Shown piece by piece: positions 1 through 32,782 of a stretch of 37,249 nt of DNA. The stretch is from an uncultured Erysipelotrichaceae bacterium (lineage in GTDB: Bacteria; Bacillota_I; Bacilli_A; RF39; UBA660): the NCBI GenBank assembly GCA_902789225.1, contig CADANC010000011.1, positions 1-37,249 on the forward strand, written 5' to 3'. Each line of letters starts with the position of its first letter. Position 1 is the stretch's first letter. Made by a program: the position numbers and the translations under genes. The notes beneath the pieces are model-generated. The model had not been told where the DNA came from, searched no databases, and was given only the letters and a program-made list of their open reading frames with translations.

Positions 1-1140
1 TTCATGTGATGATCCAGCAGTTGTTGTCCATTCATCTATTACTGTAGATCCTGATAATATTTGTAATTTTGCTCCTTCTAGTTTATTTCCTTGTGAATCC
101 ACTTTATTAATTGTTACTTTTGTCGCTCCATCTGTCATTACAATTTGTTGTGTTCCTATATCTGTATTCATTGTAAATCTGATATCTGAAGCAATTGTAT
201 AACCATCTGGTGCACTTGCTTCATGTAATATATATGCATGACCAGCAGTTAATCCTTCTACCACTTTAGCACTACTTGTTGTTGTCCATTCTTGTACTAC
301 TGAATTATTATTTGCATCTAATATTTGTAATACAACTCCTGATATATTTTGATTATTATTACCTACTTTTCTAACTTCTAATTTTGTTTTAGTATCAGAC
401 ATAGTAACTCTCATATTACTTCCATCTATTGGAACTGTGAATGTTTTTGATACTGCTTTTGCATATCCATTTGGTGGAGTAACTTCTTCTAGAGTATATC
501 TTTTTCCTGCTGTTAATATTCCAGTAACATTATGTGCACTTGTAGTACTTGTCCACTCATGTACTACTGTATTTCCATCTTTTATTCTTAAAACAGCTCC
601 TGCCAATCCATTTCCATTAGCATCTGTTTTTAAAATTGTAACTGTTAGCACTTCTCCGTTATTGTTGACTGTGAAGTTTTTATCTGATGATACTATATAT
701 CCATTAGGTGCACTTACTTCATGCAATTTATATGTTTTTCCTGGAACTAGTTTTCCTGTTATATTATGAGGTTCTGTTGTTGATGTCCACTCTTCTACTG
801 TTGTTATTCCATCTTTAACTTGTAAAACTGCTCCTGCTAATCCATTTCCATCTTCATCTTGTTTAATAATACTTACCTTAGTCTTTGGATCTGTCATTGT
901 TATTGTTTGATTTTCTTGAGTATTATCTACTGTAAATGTAACATCATTAGATTTAATATATCCAGCTGGAGCACTTACTTCATGTAGAGTATATTCTTTT
1001 CCATTGATTAAAACTTCTTTTACTGAAGTTGCTTCTGCCCCACTAGTAAATGAATAAACAACATCATTATTTTCATCTAGTATTTGTAAGCTTGCGCCAC
1101 TAACACTATTACCATTCTCATCTACTTTTTGAATTTTTAC
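1..1140 (-). repeat. At least five tandem CnaB/SpaA-type domain repeats
   Basis: The repeats start at about 1140, 876, 636, 381 and 117 (minus strand), with lengths of 88, 80, 85 and 88 residues and a partial fifth. Each has a first-strand Lys (IQK, IIK, ILK, VRK, INK). Complete repeats have a Glu in HEVSAP, EEVTPP or HEASAP. Repeats 1, 3 and 4 end with an Asp strand (TMTD, TMSD, VMTD). The second repeat lacks this last strand and runs straight into the third. The DNA copies are diverged, so this is not a recent expansion. Confidence 0.85.
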
Positions 1141-4100
1141 ATCTGCTGATTCTATTCTTACATCAACTATATTACCGTATGTTCCATCGACATTGTTTAG
1201 TATCTGTCCATATGTATCTATCGCGTTCCATTCTGCCCAGAAACCATTATATGCTTTTGGTGCACTTACATTATTAGGTGCCTTCATATTAATTATTACA
1301 TAAAGGGTTGTATCTGGTGGAATAATTGCTGATTGTCCTCGTGAATTTAATACTTCGAATGCTAGAGATTTAACTCTAGAATAATTTACTGTATCCAAGC
1401 TTGTTAGTAACTTCCATTCATCATTGATCATTACTCCGCTTTTTAGTGGACCGGCTTGTTCATTAGTTGAATAGTATGTTCTTACTGTGTATCCTTTTGA
1501 TTCTAAATAAGATGTATCAACTCCATCAAATGTGCCTTGCCACTTGCTATCATTTGTCACAGGCACAAAAGTATGATTTTCAGTATCATAATAATATGAT
1601 TCTATATTATCATATAAAACAACGTTTGTTACAGATGATTCGGTTGAATTATAAAATCTATTCTTATATTCATAATGACCGCTTTTTTCAGTTGTTGCTG
1701 AGTTTGCCCACTCATTATTATAGATTTTATTATTACTATCATCTAATTTGTATGATCTAACATATTTAGTTAGAGCTCCTTGTGATGCGTAAGCTTCTAA
1801 TAAAGTTACAGTAGAATAGTCATGCATCAATAAATCTGTGGTACTGCCATTTTCATTTATATCAACAGCATCACTATCATAATATCCTGAATCTTTATTA
1901 TAATAAGAACTATAATTATATGCTGGATCCCACACATCATTTGTTGGCTCAATTCCACCAGGTTCTAAATTAATATATGCATAATTTTTATAACTTAAGC
2001 CATACTCTGGAATTGATTCATATGGAACATATACATTAAAAAGTGCTATATATATTGGATTTACTGCTTCATCAATTTTTTTAAGCTCAACATCAGTAAA
2101 ATCAGAATGTATATGAACCCAAGTTCTACCTGTATTATTCCAGTTGTATTTAACTTCATATGAAGTATGATCTTCAATAAAACTTTGGAATTGATTTTTA
2201 GACGAAAAGACCTCGCCATTAACTGTATAATGATAATAGATCCCGCTAGATATTTCAATATTTGGATTATCTAAATACATACCTGCCGGTAATAAATCAT
2301 ACATATCTATTATAGTTACTGGGCCTATTTCTTTGTATCCATAAATATTCTTTCTATTTGGGTCTAGTCGAAGTATTCCTGTCCATCTATCTAATTGATA
2401 TTTCTCACTTCCAAAATATTTTCCTATATCATATCCTTCCTTACTCTGCAAATAACTTACATAAGCATAATCTCTTCTTGGATAATGACCATATGTTTCA
2501 TAATCCCACTGTGCTAGACCATCATTATATCCTGTACCTTTATATGATGATTCGCTCGCACCATTTAGTAGATTCCCTTGATCGTCATATACATCTAAAT
2601 AAGCAAAATTATATAGATAACCTTCTGTACCAATTTCTTCAATATCATCTTTTGAATAATTAACTTTTGTTGTCAAACTTTCATTAGTATTAATAGACTC
2701 TGTCATATTATATATTTCAATATACCAGCCTACTATATTAGTCTCACTGAAAGAAAATGACTTTCTTTCACTTGTATCAAAAATTCCTGCATTAGAATCA
2801 TCATTATTTGAATATAATACGTAATTATTAGTTCCAGCATAACGTACATATAATTTTGCCTGATATGTTTTTATAGGAATGCTATTGCCATTTTTTAATA
2901 TAGGAAGACTTATGTAGCTAAAGTAATAGTCATCATCACTAAGCCATTCTTTTTTTGTTCCATCTGCTGATTCAATATATTCTCTATCATCGCCAATTCT
3001 AACAGTTAATGGTGTTCCAGTATAATTGGTTATAGGTCTAATGTAATAATAATAACTTTCATTTGATTCTTTTATACGTTGAAAACTCATACTATGATAT
3101 TCATATGTTTTAAAATAAGTGATGTCTCTAGAATATACATGTTTAATAAGACCATAATTTCCTGGAGGATATTCAAACTTAAAATCACTTAGTTTAACTT
3201 CAACTGAATCTTCAGCAATATACTCTATTTCATGAGTATAGTTATTAGGTTTTGATCGATCATAAGCATTAACATAATTTGCATCTCTATACTGTCCATA
3301 AAACTGAGCAGTATTGGTAATTGTCTCAGATTCATACTTAGAAGTTGGATACCCTATATAAAATGACCAACTTATACTTTCTTTGGTTGAGTATGTTACT
3401 AACGATCTAATATAATATTCATTTGTGTCTGATTTTATCTCATTCATCTCATCATCTAAAATGATACAATCAGCACTTGGTAATGTCTCTTTTATAAGTA
3501 ATTTTTCTCTAGCTGAATAAGAACTTAATACTCTTCTTAAATCACTATTTTCTGGTGTCCTAGTGGCAGTGATTCTGTAATTAACCCATATATAATCATT
3601 TGATGGTAAACCATCAAGAGAAGTAATTTTTTTTGCTGTCTTAGTAAGTTTATACTTTTCTTTAGGATAGTTCAATGTAACTTTTTTACTATCACTTACT
3701 AAACTATTATCATCTAATGTATTAACAAATTTAGCATTAAACTCTTTGTATAATGGTATTTCTTGTTGAGTATTTGAGTCATATCTAATATAGACATCTT
3801 TTGCTTCTATAGCATAGGCAATTTGAAACATTCCTTCTAGATTTTCTTTTCCATCTTCAACAGCTAATTGTCTATTATTAGTAAATACATAGTATTCATT
3901 ATTATCAATTGTTTCTGTTGTATAATTCCATTCATATCCTTGTTCTACTGGGCCTGCCGCAACACTAGTTGTTACAGAATATAATTCATAATTAGAACTA
4001 TTACCATTTCCTATTTTATATTTAGGAATATAAATTTTTATTGCACCAGGTTCATAACTGTTTTGCCCTGTATATGTATATGAGGTTTGTAATGTAATAT

Positions 4101-4374
4101 ATTTATATCCATAAAAAGAATCAAATTCATGGTTTATTGTTGAAACTGAATTGGTTTTATCAACAGCAGGATCTCCCGGATTATTAGTATACATATCAAA
4201 TTGAAGTGCCCAGCCATCTAGAGATCCTTCACCATAAACTGGTGCCATATGATCTTGTTTTGTTATCTCATGTGAAAAATATTTTCTATTAAAAAATGCA
4301 ATTGCTACTAGCAATATTGCAATGACTATAAAAATTATACTTTTTCTTATTTTTAATTTTCTTGGCTTTTTCAT
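1..4374 (-). CDS. Giant membrane-anchored surface protein with tandem CnaB/SpaA repeats (3' end outside window)
   Basis: The frame is open from an ATG at 4374 to the left edge (1458 codons, no stop), so the C-terminus is missing. GAGGGG lies just upstream of the ATG. The N-terminus is basic (KKPRKLKIRK), followed by a hydrophobic segment at about residues 13-30 that acts as a signal peptide or anchor. About 1000 Tyr/Asn/Ser-rich residues follow that I cannot assign to a family. From about residue 1079 (position 1140) there are repeats of 80-88 residues of CnaB/SpaA type, each with motifs like KxDExGN, LHEVSAPxGY and a final MTD. Such stalk repeats are typical of sortase-anchored adhesins, so a sorting signal is expected beyond the edge, but none is visible. 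Probable role: cell-surface adhesin. Family type is fairly sure; ligand unknown. Confidence 0.85.
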   Translation of the reverse strand, partial: MKKPRKLKIRKSIIFIVIAILLVAIAFFNRKYFSHEITKQDHMAPVYGEGSLDGWALQFDMYTNNPGDPAVDKTNSVSTINHEFDSFYGYKYITLQTSYTYTGQNSYEPGAIKIYIPKYKIGNGNSSNYELYSVTTSVAAGPVEQGYEWNYTTETIDNNEYYVFTNNRQLAVEDGKENLEGMFQIAYAIEAKDVYIRYDSNTQQEIPLYKEFNAKFVNTLDDNSLVSDSKKVTLNYPKEKYKLTKTAKKITSLDGLPSNDYIWVNYRITATRTPENSDLRRVLSSYSAREKLLIKETLPSADCIILDDEMNEIKSDTNEYYIRSLVTYSTKESISWSFYIGYPTSKYESETITNTAQFYGQYRDANYVNAYDRSKPNNYTHEIEYIAEDSVEVKLSDFKFEYPPGNYGLIKHVYSRDITYFKTYEYHSMSFQRIKESNESYYYYIRPITNYTGTPLTVRIGDDREYIESADGTKKEWLSDDDYYFSYISLPILKNGNSIPIKTYQAKLYVRYAGTNNYVLYSNNDDSNAGIFDTSERKSFSFSETNIVGWYIEIYNMTESINTNESLTTKVNYSKDDIEEIGTEGYLYNFAYLDVYDDQGNLLNGASESSYKGTGYNDGLAQWDYETYGHYPRRDYAYVSYLQSKEGYDIGKYFGSEKYQLDRWTGILRLDPNRKNIYGYKEIGPVTIIDMYDLLPAGMYLDNPNIEISSGIYYHYTVNGEVFSSKNQFQSFIEDHTSYEVKYNWNNTGRTWVHIHSDFTDVELKKIDEAVNPIYIALFNVYVPYESIPEYGLSYKNYAYINLEPGGIEPTNDVWDPAYNYSSYYNKDSGYYDSDAVDINENGSTTDLLMHDYSTVTLLEAYASQGALTKYVRSYKLDDSNNKIYNNEWANSATTEKSGHYEYKNRFYNSTESSVTNVVLYDNIESYYYDTENHTFVPVTNDSKWQGTFDGVDTSYLESKGYTVRTYYSTNEQAGPLKSGVMINDEWKLLTSLDTVNYSRVKSLAFEVLNSRGQSAIIPPDTTLYVIINMKAPNNVSAPKAYNGFWAEWNAIDTYGQILNNVDGTYGNIVDVRIESADVKIQKVDENGNSVSGASLQILDENNDVVYSFTSGAEATSVKEVLINGKEYTLHEVSAPAGYIKSNDVTFTVDNTQENQTITMTDPKTKVSIIKQDEDGNGLAGAVLQVKDGITTVEEWTSTTEPHNITGKLVPGKTYKLHEVSAPNGYIVSSDKNFTVNNNGEVLTVTILKTDANGNGLAGAVLRIKDGNTVVHEWTSTTSAHNVTGILTAGKRYTLEEVTPPNGYAKAVSKTFTVPIDGSNMRVTMSDTKTKLEVRKVGNNNQNISGVVLQILDANNNSVVQEWTTTSSAKVVEGLTAGHAYILHEASAPDGYTIASDIRFTMNTDIGTQQIVMTDGATKVTINKVDSQGNKLEGAKLQILSGSTVIDEWTTTAGSSHE

Positions 4375-5785: not shown

Positions 5786-7276
5786 TTATTTCAAATGTAT
5801 TTTTTTATTATTTATAAAATAATATATTGATGTAGGAATAGCTATTATTGCTAATAAGATTCCTAAAATTATAGTTATTTTTATACCTGTTTGTGGGTTA
5901 GTTATTTCTGTAACTCTAATTTTAACAATATTAGTTTCTTTTGTAGTAGTATCATCATTAGCTCCAACTATTTTAACTTTTGCTTTATTTGGTATTATTT
6001 TGTATTCTACTCCATTTTCTTTTTTAACTTCATGTGATGAATCTGGATTTAATACTCTTAAATTACTAAATTTAAAAGTAAAATTACCATATACAGTTGT
6101 TGTATCTTCTCCAATATATTTAAGTGTTACATTTTGTCCTGATACTTCTTTTTCCCATTCACTAGTTACATCTTTATTGTTAGCATCAAATACTTGATAA
6201 GTTAATCCACTAATATTTAATGCTTTATCAAATGAATCGCTTAATTCTATACTTTTTGCTTTACTATGTGAATCAGTATATGGGAATGTCTCATTGATTG
6301 TATATTCTACTTTTTCACCAACCTTATATATGTCTCCTTCAACTGACTTAATAGGTTCATTTATTGTTGGATATGGATATTGATTAGAAACAGCTACAAT
6401 AGTTGTTCCACATTCACATCCCCACCACTCTGCTTCAGCTGAAGCACCAGTTTGATAAGCAACAACTGTAGAAAACTCTAATGGTTTTTCTACATCACTA
6501 TTATAACTTGTTGCTTCAGTAGCTATATATTTGGTATTGTTTTCTGTTATTTTTAATACTGAATCATTTATAACATAGAATTTATTATCAAATCCTGAAT
6601 CAAATTTTATTGATTCTGAAAACTCTGTTGGTACTCCATCATTTTCATAAATTCTTCTGTTTTTAGTTACAGTTCTATCAGCCATATCTAAATCACTTAT
6701 GCTCCATTGTAGATATAGACTATTAGCTAAATCACTATTTAATTCTGATCCATCATCATTATATAAAGTAATTGTAAAATAATCGTGAATACCCATATCA
6801 GAATTATAGTTCTTAAAATCATTATCATATCCTCTTGCAATTAACTCTAGACCAAAGCTTCCAACTTGACCAACTGAATAATATCTATAATTACTATCTG
6901 AAATGCCATTAGTCCATTTTATTATTATTTTATTTACTTTCAATTTAGCATCTAAGTAAACTGGATTTCCATTATCATCAACATAGTAACCTATTTTATC
7001 CCAAGATACTTCAAAAGGATTATTATATGTCTTAGTACTTGTTGGTATATTATGAATAACAATATAAGAATTACCTTTATCTAAAACTTCAAAATTAGCG
7101 TTATCATTTATTTTTATTGTGTAATTATCCATATTATTAAAGTATACATATTTTTTTTCAGATAATAATGGTGGTATGTTAATATTTGAAATTTCTTCTA
7201 CTGTACTAGCAGCATAAACTTTTGGTATAAGCATAAGTGTAAGTGTTATTACTATAAATAAAATTATTTTTTTCAT
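5786..7276 (-). CDS. Sortase-type surface protein with NPQTG signal and fimbrial D2-like domain
   Basis: This is a secreted, wall-anchored protein of 496 residues. It has a signal peptide (about 1-22, ending VYA), an unassigned N-terminal half, and a domain at about 305-455 that resembles the fimbrial isopeptide-forming D2 (CnaA-like) family. Candidate bond residues are Lys310 (PIKSVEG), Asp347 (LSDSFD) and Asn430 (IPNKAKV). The C-terminus has NPQTG at 460-464, a hydrophobic span at 467-487 and a basic tail (NNKKIHLK), the standard order of a sortase signal. An in-frame GTG lies at 7285, but GGAAAG is eight bases before the ATG at 7276, so I use the ATG. A WWGCECG motif near 284-290 is unusual in a surface protein. 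It follows the glucosaminidase by 30 bases and is probably cotranscribed. Confidence 0.85.
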   Translation of the reverse strand: MKKIILFIVITLTLMLIPKVYAASTVEEISNINIPPLLSEKKYVYFNNMDNYTIKINDNANFEVLDKGNSYIVIHNIPTSTKTYNNPFEVSWDKIGYYVDDNGNPVYLDAKLKVNKIIIKWTNGISDSNYRYYSVGQVGSFGLELIARGYDNDFKNYNSDMGIHDYFTITLYNDDGSELNSDLANSLYLQWSISDLDMADRTVTKNRRIYENDGVPTEFSESIKFDSGFDNKFYVINDSVLKITENNTKYIATEATSYNSDVEKPLEFSTVVAYQTGASAEAEWWGCECGTTIVAVSNQYPYPTINEPIKSVEGDIYKVGEKVEYTINETFPYTDSHSKAKSIELSDSFDKALNISGLTYQVFDANNKDVTSEWEKEVSGQNVTLKYIGEDTTTVYGNFTFKFSNLRVLNPDSSHEVKKENGVEYKIIPNKAKVKIVGANDDTTTKETNIVKIRVTEITNPQTGIKITIILGILLAIIAIPTSIYYFINNKKIHLK

Positions 7277-7306
7277 ATTTTTCACTTTCCATTTTTTTGA
7301 TTTTAA

Positions 7307-10300
7307 TTATTCTACAATTAATTCTATTCTATTATTTCTACTATTATTAATTGATGTAGTGTATTTCTTATTATTTATCTCTTTAGTTTGAGAATTTATT
7401 ACTCCAAATAAGTAGTTTAGTTCTCCATAGTCTTCTGCATCTTGTGTTTTAGTATATATATTCATAGAATATGTTCCTGCAGGTAACTCGCTAACATCAA
7501 TTTCTTTATTAAACCATGCATAATCTTTAGATTTATTATCTGGAGAAGTTACAACATAGCTTCCATTATTAGTAGAAGATAAATCAAATGCAAAAGTTTC
7601 ATAAGTAGAAATATTTTCTAGTATTAATGTTCTTCTAATAGAATTAGGTTTATCATAAGTTCCTCCATAGTTATATGAAGTTCCTTTCATAACCATGTTA
7701 TTATTACTAAATGTAATAGAATCATAGTTATTAATCATAGTTCTATATGTAGGAGCTGTTGATGTTGTTATTAATTTATTTCTTACATTTAATTCTATTT
7801 TTCTATTCTTTAAGTTCATTCTTGTTGATAAATTATATCCTTTATTAGAATCATTTACTCTTTTTGGAATATCTATATTAAATGTATTAGAAAGAACTGT
7901 TTCAGTATAGTATTCTCCTTTATATGCTCTCATATATAAATCATAATCACCTAGAGGAATATCTTCTAGTGAGAAATCTCCATTAAACCATGAGTTATCG
8001 TAATTGTTTTCTTCTCCTAATGGGAATGGTGTATTTTCTGTCCAACTAGATATTTCTTTAGTATATTCTTTATCACTATTAACATCTTTTAGAACTAATT
8101 CATATTTAACTAAATTAGAATTATCATGATCTTTTATAATTAAATATCCTGAAATATTATATTTATTATTAGAATATGTTAATCCTTTTAAATAGAATGA
8201 AGATTCTGCTTCTTTATATTCAATTTCTGTAGGATTATCATTTCCTGGATCTGGTGTTGGCTCAGGAGATGGTTCAGGTGTAGGTTCTGGAGATGGCTCA
8301 GGAGTTGGTTCTACTATTACTTCTTTTACTGTAACTTTTATTGTAATAGATGCTTCAACATTAGATGAGTCTTTTACTTTATAAGTAATATTGTATACTC
8401 CTGGAGTATTTATATCTACTGTTCCTTCAATCATTATACGTGATGTAATATCTTTATCTTCTTCATCATATGCTGTTACTAATGATCTTAAATCTATTTC
8501 ATCACCTTGATTTATTTCAACATCATGTCCTGTTAGGACAGGTGGTGTATTTGTAACTACAGTTTTACCAAACTTAGTTATTTCTACTTCAGAATCATAT
8601 GAGATTGACCAACCATACTCAGGCTTTGTACCATCTAAATCTACTGGCATTTTATACCAAGTATTACCATTCACTACTTTTTCTTCTACTATTGGGAAAT
8701 ATGCTCCATCGTAGTGTCCTGAAATCAAATTAGTTTCACTAGTAGTTGAATCTACTCTAGCATAAGTATTTGATGATACTTTTACTTTTTGTTTTCCATA
8801 AGCCATTTCTACAAATCTAATTGAATCACTTGGTACCCAGGCTTTTTGATCATAGAAATAATCGCTAGTTACTTGATATGCAACTGCCCTATGATTTTCA
8901 TCATAAGCTATGGCATATACCATTACATATCTATCTTTTACTAAAGTTTTAGATGTATTATCTAAAAGAGATGAATCATAATAATAATTTGTATTTTTTA
9001 AAGAGATTCCTACTTTTGGTGAAAGATTTTTATTTTCAATTAGTAAATCATAAGTATAATTTGAATCTTTATATTTAGTTACATTGTTTGGATCTTGATA
9101 TCCATTTACAGGTGTATTTATTTTTATTACATATGATGCTGGTACATATAAATGCTTATTCCAGTTATATGCAGCATCTATTTCATTATAGTTATTATCT
9201 ATATTTACATCTGTCATTACTTCATACCAGATATTTGATCCATTAACAGTTTCTCCTGTAGTCTCAGAAACTATTATTATGGCATCTTCATATTCTTGGT
9301 AATTATATATTTTCTTTGATGAAGTTCTTGGTTCAGCATATGCTCCTACTACTCCGGTTACAATTGCTTCTTGATAATAGTTATAATCTTGAAGACCGTG
9401 AGTTTTATCAAATGAATAGTAATTAGCTGCCATTTTTTCTGACCAATATATGTCTGATGCATATTTTACTCCCATACCTATTCCTTTGTTTCCGTATTGA
9501 GAACCAAAATATACACTTGAAGTTGCTTTAGAATAGAAATTTGTTATATATCCATCAGCAAATCCTAGGATTGATGCTGCATATGTTGGATACCAGTTAG
9601 CTTCTTGATATGGATTTGAATCTACTGCATTTAGTCCGAATCCATTGTTTTTAGTAACTGCTAAACTACTTCTTCCATAGCCAGTCTCATTTATACTTAA
9701 ACTCATAGTAAGTAATGCATTTGCTCCATATACTTCTTGAGAATTATAGAAATATGTTCCACTTCCATATAACCTTGAAGTACCTGGTAATGCACTAAAT
9801 CCATAAGCATCCATTTTATAACCTAAAGTATTTCTAATATATTCATCTATATTAATTGATGAATAATTAGTTCTTGTATGATTAGGTAAATACATATAAT
9901 AGTTATAATATGGATTATCTTTATTTACTGCATTATTATGATTATTATTTTTATAATCATTTAACATTGTCTTTAAACTATTATAGAAATAATGTCCATC
10001 ATATGAATAATACTTTCCAGGATTTAACATAACTGGCTTAGGACCTATTGTTCTTCCTGCAGTTCCAGAATATTCAAAAGCAGGTCTATTAACATAATTA
10101 TGTCTAATTTCTGTAGATGATACTGTATAAGATGAAGCTGCTTTAGTCCAAATTAATGGAGTTATTTCTACATCATTTATATCCATCCATCCTGTCATAC
10201 CGGCAAAAGTAACTTTTGCTGAATAACTAGATGAAGTTTGTGCTGTATCTGATAGAGCTGCATCAATTCCCATACATGTATCTAGAGTATGTATATAAGT

Positions 10301-10642
10301 ATATTTTCTTCCTGCTAAAGAACTTTTTTCATAAACGTTAGCAGTTTGTGTAGAAGAATAACTCATATCAACTAATGCATAGTTAGCTGCTACTATCTTT
10401 AATTTATCTTTGTATACTGTTACAACTACTGCATTTTCATTTCCTGATCTAATCATCGCTGCTTTTGCACTTTCAAAGTCTTTGTAACAACCTATTTCAT
10501 TTAGTCCACCACTTGCTGTTGCTTCACTTACTTCATAAGTATCACAAGGTTTCCAATTTTGATAGTCACTAGAGGTAGTCGCAAAAACTTTAGTACTAAG
10601 ACATACTAAAAATATAGTTATTATTAATAATATCTTTTTCAT
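7307..10642 (-). CDS. Secreted GH73-type endo-beta-N-acetylglucosaminidase with SH3-like, Ig-like and tandem C-terminal domains
   Basis: This is a peptidoglycan hydrolase of 1111 residues. A signal peptide (about 1-21, ending VFA) is followed by an N-terminal region and a glucosaminidase domain at about 265-420. Its SINETGYGRSSLA motif has the probable catalytic Glu at 319, followed by NNGFGLNA. SH3-like segments lie at about 430-510 and 615-690, and an Ig-like domain (DUF5011 type, starting PPVLTG) at about 700-773. A Pro/Glu linker (PTPEPSPEP repeats) at about 779-799 leads to two related C-terminal modules (about 811-953 and 976-1111). A longer in-frame start exists 21 codons upstream, but GAGGAGGT precedes the ATG at 10642, which also gives the clean signal peptide. 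There is no sorting signal, so it is probably released or bound through the C-terminal modules. It is transcribed divergently from the LCP gene. Confidence 0.9.
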   Translation of the reverse strand: MKKILLIITIFLVCLSTKVFATTSSDYQNWKPCDTYEVSEATASGGLNEIGCYKDFESAKAAMIRSGNENAVVVTVYKDKLKIVAANYALVDMSYSSTQTANVYEKSSLAGRKYTYIHTLDTCMGIDAALSDTAQTSSSYSAKVTFAGMTGWMDINDVEITPLIWTKAASSYTVSSTEIRHNYVNRPAFEYSGTAGRTIGPKPVMLNPGKYYSYDGHYFYNSLKTMLNDYKNNNHNNAVNKDNPYYNYYMYLPNHTRTNYSSINIDEYIRNTLGYKMDAYGFSALPGTSRLYGSGTYFYNSQEVYGANALLTMSLSINETGYGRSSLAVTKNNGFGLNAVDSNPYQEANWYPTYAASILGFADGYITNFYSKATSSVYFGSQYGNKGIGMGVKYASDIYWSEKMAANYYSFDKTHGLQDYNYYQEAIVTGVVGAYAEPRTSSKKIYNYQEYEDAIIIVSETTGETVNGSNIWYEVMTDVNIDNNYNEIDAAYNWNKHLYVPASYVIKINTPVNGYQDPNNVTKYKDSNYTYDLLIENKNLSPKVGISLKNTNYYYDSSLLDNTSKTLVKDRYVMVYAIAYDENHRAVAYQVTSDYFYDQKAWVPSDSIRFVEMAYGKQKVKVSSNTYARVDSTTSETNLISGHYDGAYFPIVEEKVVNGNTWYKMPVDLDGTKPEYGWSISYDSEVEITKFGKTVVTNTPPVLTGHDVEINQGDEIDLRSLVTAYDEEDKDITSRIMIEGTVDINTPGVYNITYKVKDSSNVEASITIKVTVKEVIVEPTPEPSPEPTPEPSPEPTPDPGNDNPTEIEYKEAESSFYLKGLTYSNNKYNISGYLIIKDHDNSNLVKYELVLKDVNSDKEYTKEISSWTENTPFPLGEENNYDNSWFNGDFSLEDIPLGDYDLYMRAYKGEYYTETVLSNTFNIDIPKRVNDSNKGYNLSTRMNLKNRKIELNVRNKLITTSTAPTYRTMINNYDSITFSNNNMVMKGTSYNYGGTYDKPNSIRRTLILENISTYETFAFDLSSTNNGSYVVTSPDNKSKDYAWFNKEIDVSELPAGTYSMNIYTKTQDAEDYGELNYLFGVINSQTKEINNKKYTTSINNSRNNRIELIVE

Positions 10643-10713
10643 GATTACCTCCTCTATTACGTATTCTCTCATTATTATTATATCAATTATATATATATTA
10701 ATCATTTTGTTGA

Positions 10714-32116: not shown

Positions 32117-32782
32117 CTATTCGTCTTCAACATTTATAAGTTCAGAAATATAAACTGTTTGTGATGTTAAATCATGATTTGTACAAGTAATTAATGTTAG
32201 AGTAGATTTTTCATAATTACGGTATATTGCGATTTTTCCTGTTTTTTCTTGTTTATAAATATTTGTTAATTGATAAGTATATTTTTTTCCTTTATAAGTT
32301 ACGTATATTTGATCTCCTGTTGTTAATTGATATAGATCATTAAAGAATGCTTGCCATCCTGGTCCAGAATGGGCTGCTATAATAAAGTTTCCTTTTTCTA
32401 CATCTGGATATGTTGCTCCATCTACGATATAGATATTTTTTTCAACATCGTTTTCACTTGATCTTCTATCAACAAATCCTTTTGTTAAATTAATTTTGGG
32501 TATTATTAAATATCCGATATATTCATTACTAATAACAGGATCATCCTCTTGAATATATTCAGGCTTTTCTTCTTCTTTTTCTTTTTCTTTCTTAATTACA
32601 ACAGGTGTACCTTCTTCATCTTTTTCAGCAAAAAATTCAGTAGAAACATAATCATAGGCATAAACTTTTTTAGATTGAACATAATTGTAAGAAACTAAAT
32701 AACCACCAATCATAATTAGTAACGCTGATATAGCTGATACTAGAGTTGGTGTTAACAATTTTTTCTTATTTCTCTTTTTCAT
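32117..32782 (-). CDS. Sortase family protein with atypical active site
   Basis: Sortases cleave a sorting motif and join surface proteins to the wall or to each other. The 221 residues have one N-terminal membrane segment (about 12-32), an acidic/basic linker (KKEKEKEEEKPEY) and a sortase domain from about 88 with IIPKINL, NFIIAAHSG (His138), FFNDLYQLTTGDQIYV and TLITC (Cys200). Eight residues after the Cys, where the catalytic Arg is expected, there is Gln208 (TSQTVYISEL). I cannot fix the class; the FFNDL and GDQI motifs recall classes B and D. AAGGGG precedes the ATG. No substrate gene is adjacent, but an NPQTG protein is encoded at 5786-7276. Confidence 0.88.
   Translation of the reverse strand: MKKRNKKKLLTPTLVSAISALLIMIGGYLVSYNYVQSKKVYAYDYVSTEFFAEKDEEGTPVVIKKEKEKEEEKPEYIQEDDPVISNEYIGYLIIPKINLTKGFVDRRSSENDVEKNIYIVDGATYPDVEKGNFIIAAHSGPGWQAFFNDLYQLTTGDQIYVTYKGKKYTYQLTNIYKQEKTGKIAIYRNYEKSTLTLITCTNHDLTSQTVYISELINVEDE

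Follow-up and report, generated by a model that had tools for sequence, protein, structure and literature searches.

Tandem SpaA domains with Lys-Glu-Asp triads in the predicted stalk of a truncated surface protein from an uncultured Erysipelotrichaceae bacterium

The left end of contig CADANC010000011.1, from an uncultured Erysipelotrichaceae bacterium, encodes tandem repeats resembling the CnaB2 domain of Streptococcus pyogenes. This raises the question of whether the repeats form a stalk of domains crosslinked internally by Lys-Asp isopeptide bonds, and how unusual such a stalk would be. We analyzed the whole 37,249-nucleotide stretch (hereafter, the window), which is contig C11 of a 1.6-Mb assembly of 43 contigs. 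The repeats at 118-1140 are encoded on the minus strand within a single open frame, P0001 (4374..1, 1458 aa), whose 3' end, corresponding to the C-terminal part of the protein, is truncated by the left contig end. The SpaA profile PF17802 matched P0001 in five stretches (E = 4.8e-54; 180.9 bits, curated cut-off 23.1). As judged from the sequence, the SpaA repeat array is real and far beyond chance. The nearest named genome carrying the gene is RUG343 (an uncultured Firmicutes bacterium isolate), whose ortholog is 72% identical over residues 1-1411. The features are as follows:

1..4374, minus strand: P0001, 1458 aa, with an export signal, a ~1000-aa head and SpaA repeats (open reading frame list, Pfam and the RUG343 ortholog)
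4258..4374, minus strand: N-terminal basic stretch and hydrophobic segment (MKKPRKLKIRKSIIFIVIAILLVAIAFF), a putative signal peptide or membrane anchor (sequence)
1150..4257, minus strand: head, residues ~40-1075 (homologous head in a same-genus genome)
886..1143, minus strand: R1, SpaA domain; K1083 (1126-1128), E1132 (979-981), D1162 (889-891)
631..879, minus strand: R2, SpaA domain without the last strand and acceptor Asp; K1171 (862-864), E1219 (718-720)
636..637, minus strand: R2/R3 junction, where 27 bp (9 codons) are absent relative to the paralog on contig C10 (paralog comparison)
388..645, minus strand: R3, SpaA domain; K1249 (628-630), E1297 (484-486), D1327 (394-396)
130..384, minus strand: R4, SpaA domain superposing on FbaB CnaB2; K1336 (367-369), E1385 (220-222), D1415 (130-132)
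1..120, minus strand: first part of R5; K1424 (103-105); the rest on contig C4-left or C10-left (candidates)
32117..32782, minus strand: predicted sortase, a candidate anchoring enzyme (profile match)

P0001 thus contains four full-length repeats (R1-R4) and half of a fifth. A preliminary description had listed the motifs IQKVD, ILKTD, VRKVG, MTD, MSD and EVSAPxGY, all of which are present on the minus strand of 118-1140, but it had overlooked the start of R5 (K1424), from which the array continues on other contigs. It had also described an uninterrupted chain of Lys-Glu-Asp domains. The complete triad was found in R1, R3 and R4, three of the four full-length repeats, with Lys in the first strand, Glu in a YxLxE motif and Asp in the last strand. 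R2 lacks the acceptor strand, so the chain is interrupted, and R5 is partial owing to the contig end. Spacing within the three triads is constant (48-49 residues from Lys to Glu and 30 from Glu to Asp), and Lys, Glu and Asp are kept at fixed spacing in the RUG343 ortholog as well.

We next compared the repeats with solved structures. By sequence, the best matches of the repeat region were SpyCatcher/FbaB CnaB2 chains (E ~1e-9), and in the profile alignment the Lys and Glu of the window fell on the Lys and catalytic Glu of SpyCatcher. An AF2 model of R3+R4, built from an alignment of the window and RUG343 rows, reached a pLDDT of 92.1 and a pTM of 0.78, and its best structure matches were CnaB domains. 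Each Lys in the model lies within a first strand, and each Asp lies at or just after the end of the last strand. R3 and R4 are thus predicted to have a CnaB/transthyretin-like beta-sandwich fold. Using VIA-align, R4 was superposed on FbaB CnaB2 (2X5P; Z 13.6, 1.6 A, 87 residues, 29% identity), with model residues 90..179 corresponding to chain residues 22..118. We take the FbaB triad to be K31/E77/D117. The alignment is reported by its range ends only; if both ends are ungapped, K99 of R4 would fall on K31 and D178 on D117, which is strong but indirect evidence from the model. The net difference of seven residues between R4 and 2X5P is made up of +3 from Lys to Glu and −10 from Glu to Asp, and this is what a match of E148 to E77 would give. 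The profile alignment (Lys and Glu) and the R4 superposition (Lys and Asp) therefore bear out the proposed likeness to the parent domain of SpyCatcher. Lys31 is named in PMC12384687, and Asp117 in PMC5082641.

These features suggest how the protein may be built. The ~1000-residue head would be held off the cell by tandem SpaA domains of the CnaB, transthyretin-like fold. In an intact domain, the first-strand Lys and last-strand Asp would sit side by side in the core, beside the catalytic Glu, where they would join spontaneously to form an amide with loss of water. The resulting isopeptide bond would make the domain resistant to unfolding or digestion. This bond is predicted for R1, R3 and R4 but not for R2, whose last strand is missing; judging from sequence and model, self-crosslinking of R1, R3 and R4 is most likely.

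We then asked how common Asp acceptors are. The survey of the host's order covered 30 SpaA-rich loci of that order plus other relatives, picked by profile score and not a random sample. Among the domains with Lys and Glu, the acceptor was Asn in 56 and Asp in 6, and for 22 more, many visibly Asn, the alignment did not resolve it. This agrees with the earlier statement that Asn is the commoner acceptor, as far as the host's order is concerned. The host's own genome has 12 Asp and 3 Asn acceptors. Across the surveyed complete SpaA domains, Lys and Glu were near-invariant and nearly all had an Asp or Asn acceptor; a few related domains had Gln in place of Glu or lacked the acceptor. When the phylum was scanned with an Asp-favoring profile of the window's repeat type, 31 of 295 genomes matched, including the host's own, and the fetched loci contained 36 K-E-D and 12 K-E-N domains. 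In other Bacilli genomes, several arrays comprised four or five K-E-D domains (L110, L117, L123), contrary to the idea that a Lys-Asp array is rare. On these sequence counts, the Asp acceptor is unusual for the host's order, while tandem Lys-Asp arrays are not unusual in Bacilli. No related repeats were found in viral contigs with a single-protein query. One relative appeared to have a frame of 24270 aa with SpaA domains (G098:C3 7414-80223), but it was produced by 72 kb of masked N and was discarded as an artefact.

The missing 3' end was sought on other contigs, as the preliminary description had suggested. The same 24 bases end C11-left and C10-right and begin C10-left and C4-left. C10-left and C4-left each supply the rest of R5, two further Lys-Glu-Asp domains and a sorting signal (NPETS and NPQTT, respectively), which is accompanied by a membrane helix and a basic tail. 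Two candidate ends were thus located for the gene, although the join is ambiguous: P0001 itself has the export signal and stalk repeats, and an NPxTx signal is present on both candidates. The lost 3' end would most likely comprise the remainder of R5, two Lys-Glu-Asp domains and a wall-sorting signal of the NPxTx type. Because the candidate contigs add these elements, a sortase-anchored, isopeptide-stiffened, adhesin-like protein is most likely. The host genome has five sortase genes, one of which is in the window.

The gene at C10-right (L061, G000:C10:31000-38134) is a paralog with 49% identity, a 1687-aa frame and six SpaA domains, which are similar apart from their mixed acceptors: Asn in R1 and R2 (VTIENAKT, VTMVNKKT) and Asp in R3-R6. 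In its seventh repeat, 70 bp are deleted out of frame between short GGAAA repeats (L061 ~6590-6644), which splits the gene into frames of 1687 and 182 aa; this may reflect a pseudogene, a strain variant or an assembly effect. In RUG343, three contig ends (L068, L069, L070) each carry the first 100-122 residues of further P0001-type copies (71-78% identical), so that the family is present there in several copies and breaks the assembly. The host genome also encodes SpaA proteins opening with apparent thioester-type domains (L064 and L065; YCVQP, YCIDP), one of which has its own sortase after it; the C30 copy is broken into several frames.

The head of P0001 matched no family in the Pfam profile search, and its AF2 model was unusable (pLDDT 32), with only two sequences in the alignment. 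We rejected a CnaA-like DUF11/CLIPPER domain for the part LTK...ITNTAQFYG, for which no Pfam or PDB match was found. A head 31% identical to that of P0001 occurs in a same-genus genome, where its stalk has five Cna_B domains and the signal is NPKTG (L067 585-5825, minus strand, G003:C5). Similar heads thus stand on different stalks, one of SpaA domains with Asp in the window and one of Cna_B domains in the same-genus genome.

Comparison with known systems places the repeats within an established group. FbaB CnaB2 shares the fold, a triad in the same strands and an EtaAPdGY-like Glu motif with the window repeats, which differ in forming a tandem array and in having 30 residues from Glu to Asp instead of 40, suggesting a shorter last hairpin. 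CnaB2 of Lactiplantibacillus plantarum (8BDW), compared in fold only, is also similar (Z 13.6, 1.8 A, 91 residues, 25% identity), although host and protein differ. The SpaA pilin of L. rhamnosus GG shares the CnaB fold and combines one Lys-Asn and one Lys-Asp domain; the Lys-Asp bond is proven in its C domain (5F44), and the neighboring domain uses Asn, as do some domains of the C10 paralog (PMC4923907). That pilin subunit has two domains, whereas in P0001 many stalk domains follow a long head. The PF17802 proteins and fibrillar adhesins described by Costa et al. 2025 (PMC12617251) resemble P0001 in being long surface proteins that carry isopeptide domains in tandem, and the exemplar bond given there for SpaA is formed by Lys 297, Glu 347 and Asp 595 in 2XID; the head of P0001 differs in having no Pfam family. 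In addition, a homologous domain of Streptococcus dysgalactiae, found by BLAST, was turned into SdyTag/SdyCatcher, with the self-ligated mass determined by MS (PMC5082641). Lys-Asp bonds and tag/catcher pairs derived from homologues are therefore already published (PMC12617251, PMC4923907, PMC5082641).

The R2/R3 junction requires separate consideration. The end of R2, ...NNNGEVLTVTILKTD..., passes directly into the first strand of R3, and the nine residues lost from R2 are retained in both the RUG343 ortholog and the C10 paralog. Because these 27 bp are missing, R2 and R3 share a single strand, the last of R2 merged with the first of R3. Were it assigned to R2 as its last strand, the acceptor position would be occupied by the Lys of R3, so R2 and R3 could not both be bonded. 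Identity to the C10 paralog is patchy upstream of the junction and ~93-100% from the junction to the contig end, a pattern that points to recombination or gene conversion, or else to an effect of assembly. It is possible, though we consider it doubtful, that part of the array, notably this junction, is an assembly artefact fusing two paralogous genes. Four contig ends converge in this repeat, and the near-identity to the C10 paralog downstream, but not upstream, of the junction would fit such a fusion. However, the gap measures nine codons exactly and leaves the frame intact, no more than ~12 bases match exactly at the join, and a similar R3 occupies the same position in the RUG343 ortholog. 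If the deletion is real, R2 might act as a natural 'catcher', with Lys and Glu but no last strand, that takes up an acceptor strand from another molecule, thereby covalently crosslinking neighboring surface proteins; we regard this as highly improbable.

The loss of the R2 acceptor strand would also suit another reading, that the repeats are plain SpaA-fold spacers that have inherited the triad as a relic and form few if any isopeptide bonds. The few related domains with Gln for Glu or no acceptor speak for it too. We nevertheless consider this reading improbable, as a relic would not retain the near-invariant Lys and Glu and the Asp or Asn acceptor seen in nearly all complete domains, and the L. 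rhamnosus Lys-Asp domain does form its bond (PMC4923907). Somewhat less improbable, but still unlikely, is that P0001 is a pilin subunit polymerized by sortase and not a monomeric fibrillar adhesin. The candidate tails and the paralog gave weak matches, far below cut-off, to the pilin models NF033396 (pilus ancillary protein) and NF033902 (SpaH/EbpB pilin). The neighboring frame at 5786-7285 (minus strand), which is wall-anchored with an NPQTG signal and weakly matches RrgB_K2N_iso_D2 (an isopeptide domain), could also be read in this way. Against this, the ~1730 residues with one long head and many stalk domains better suit a fibrillar adhesin, the window sortase lies ~28 kb away, and no pilin operon was found among the window genes surrounding P0001. 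The next gene, at 7307-10705 (minus strand), encodes a glucosaminidase with Ig-like domains. We therefore consider it very probable that the repeats form the stalk of a sortase-anchored, fibrillar adhesin-like surface protein in which R1, R3 and R4 are self-crosslinked through Lys and Asp and R2 is not.

The stalk of P0001 belongs to a kind already known and widespread among bacteria, of which it is a good example, and does not represent a new one. As a source of tag/catcher parts, the window repeats are one among many homologues. With this locus, a tandem Lys-Glu-Asp stalk is now documented from an uncultured lineage in which Asn is otherwise the main acceptor of SpaA domains. The two stalk types under a similar head, together with the paralog with mixed Asn and Asp acceptors, provide natural comparisons for the choice between Asp and Asn.
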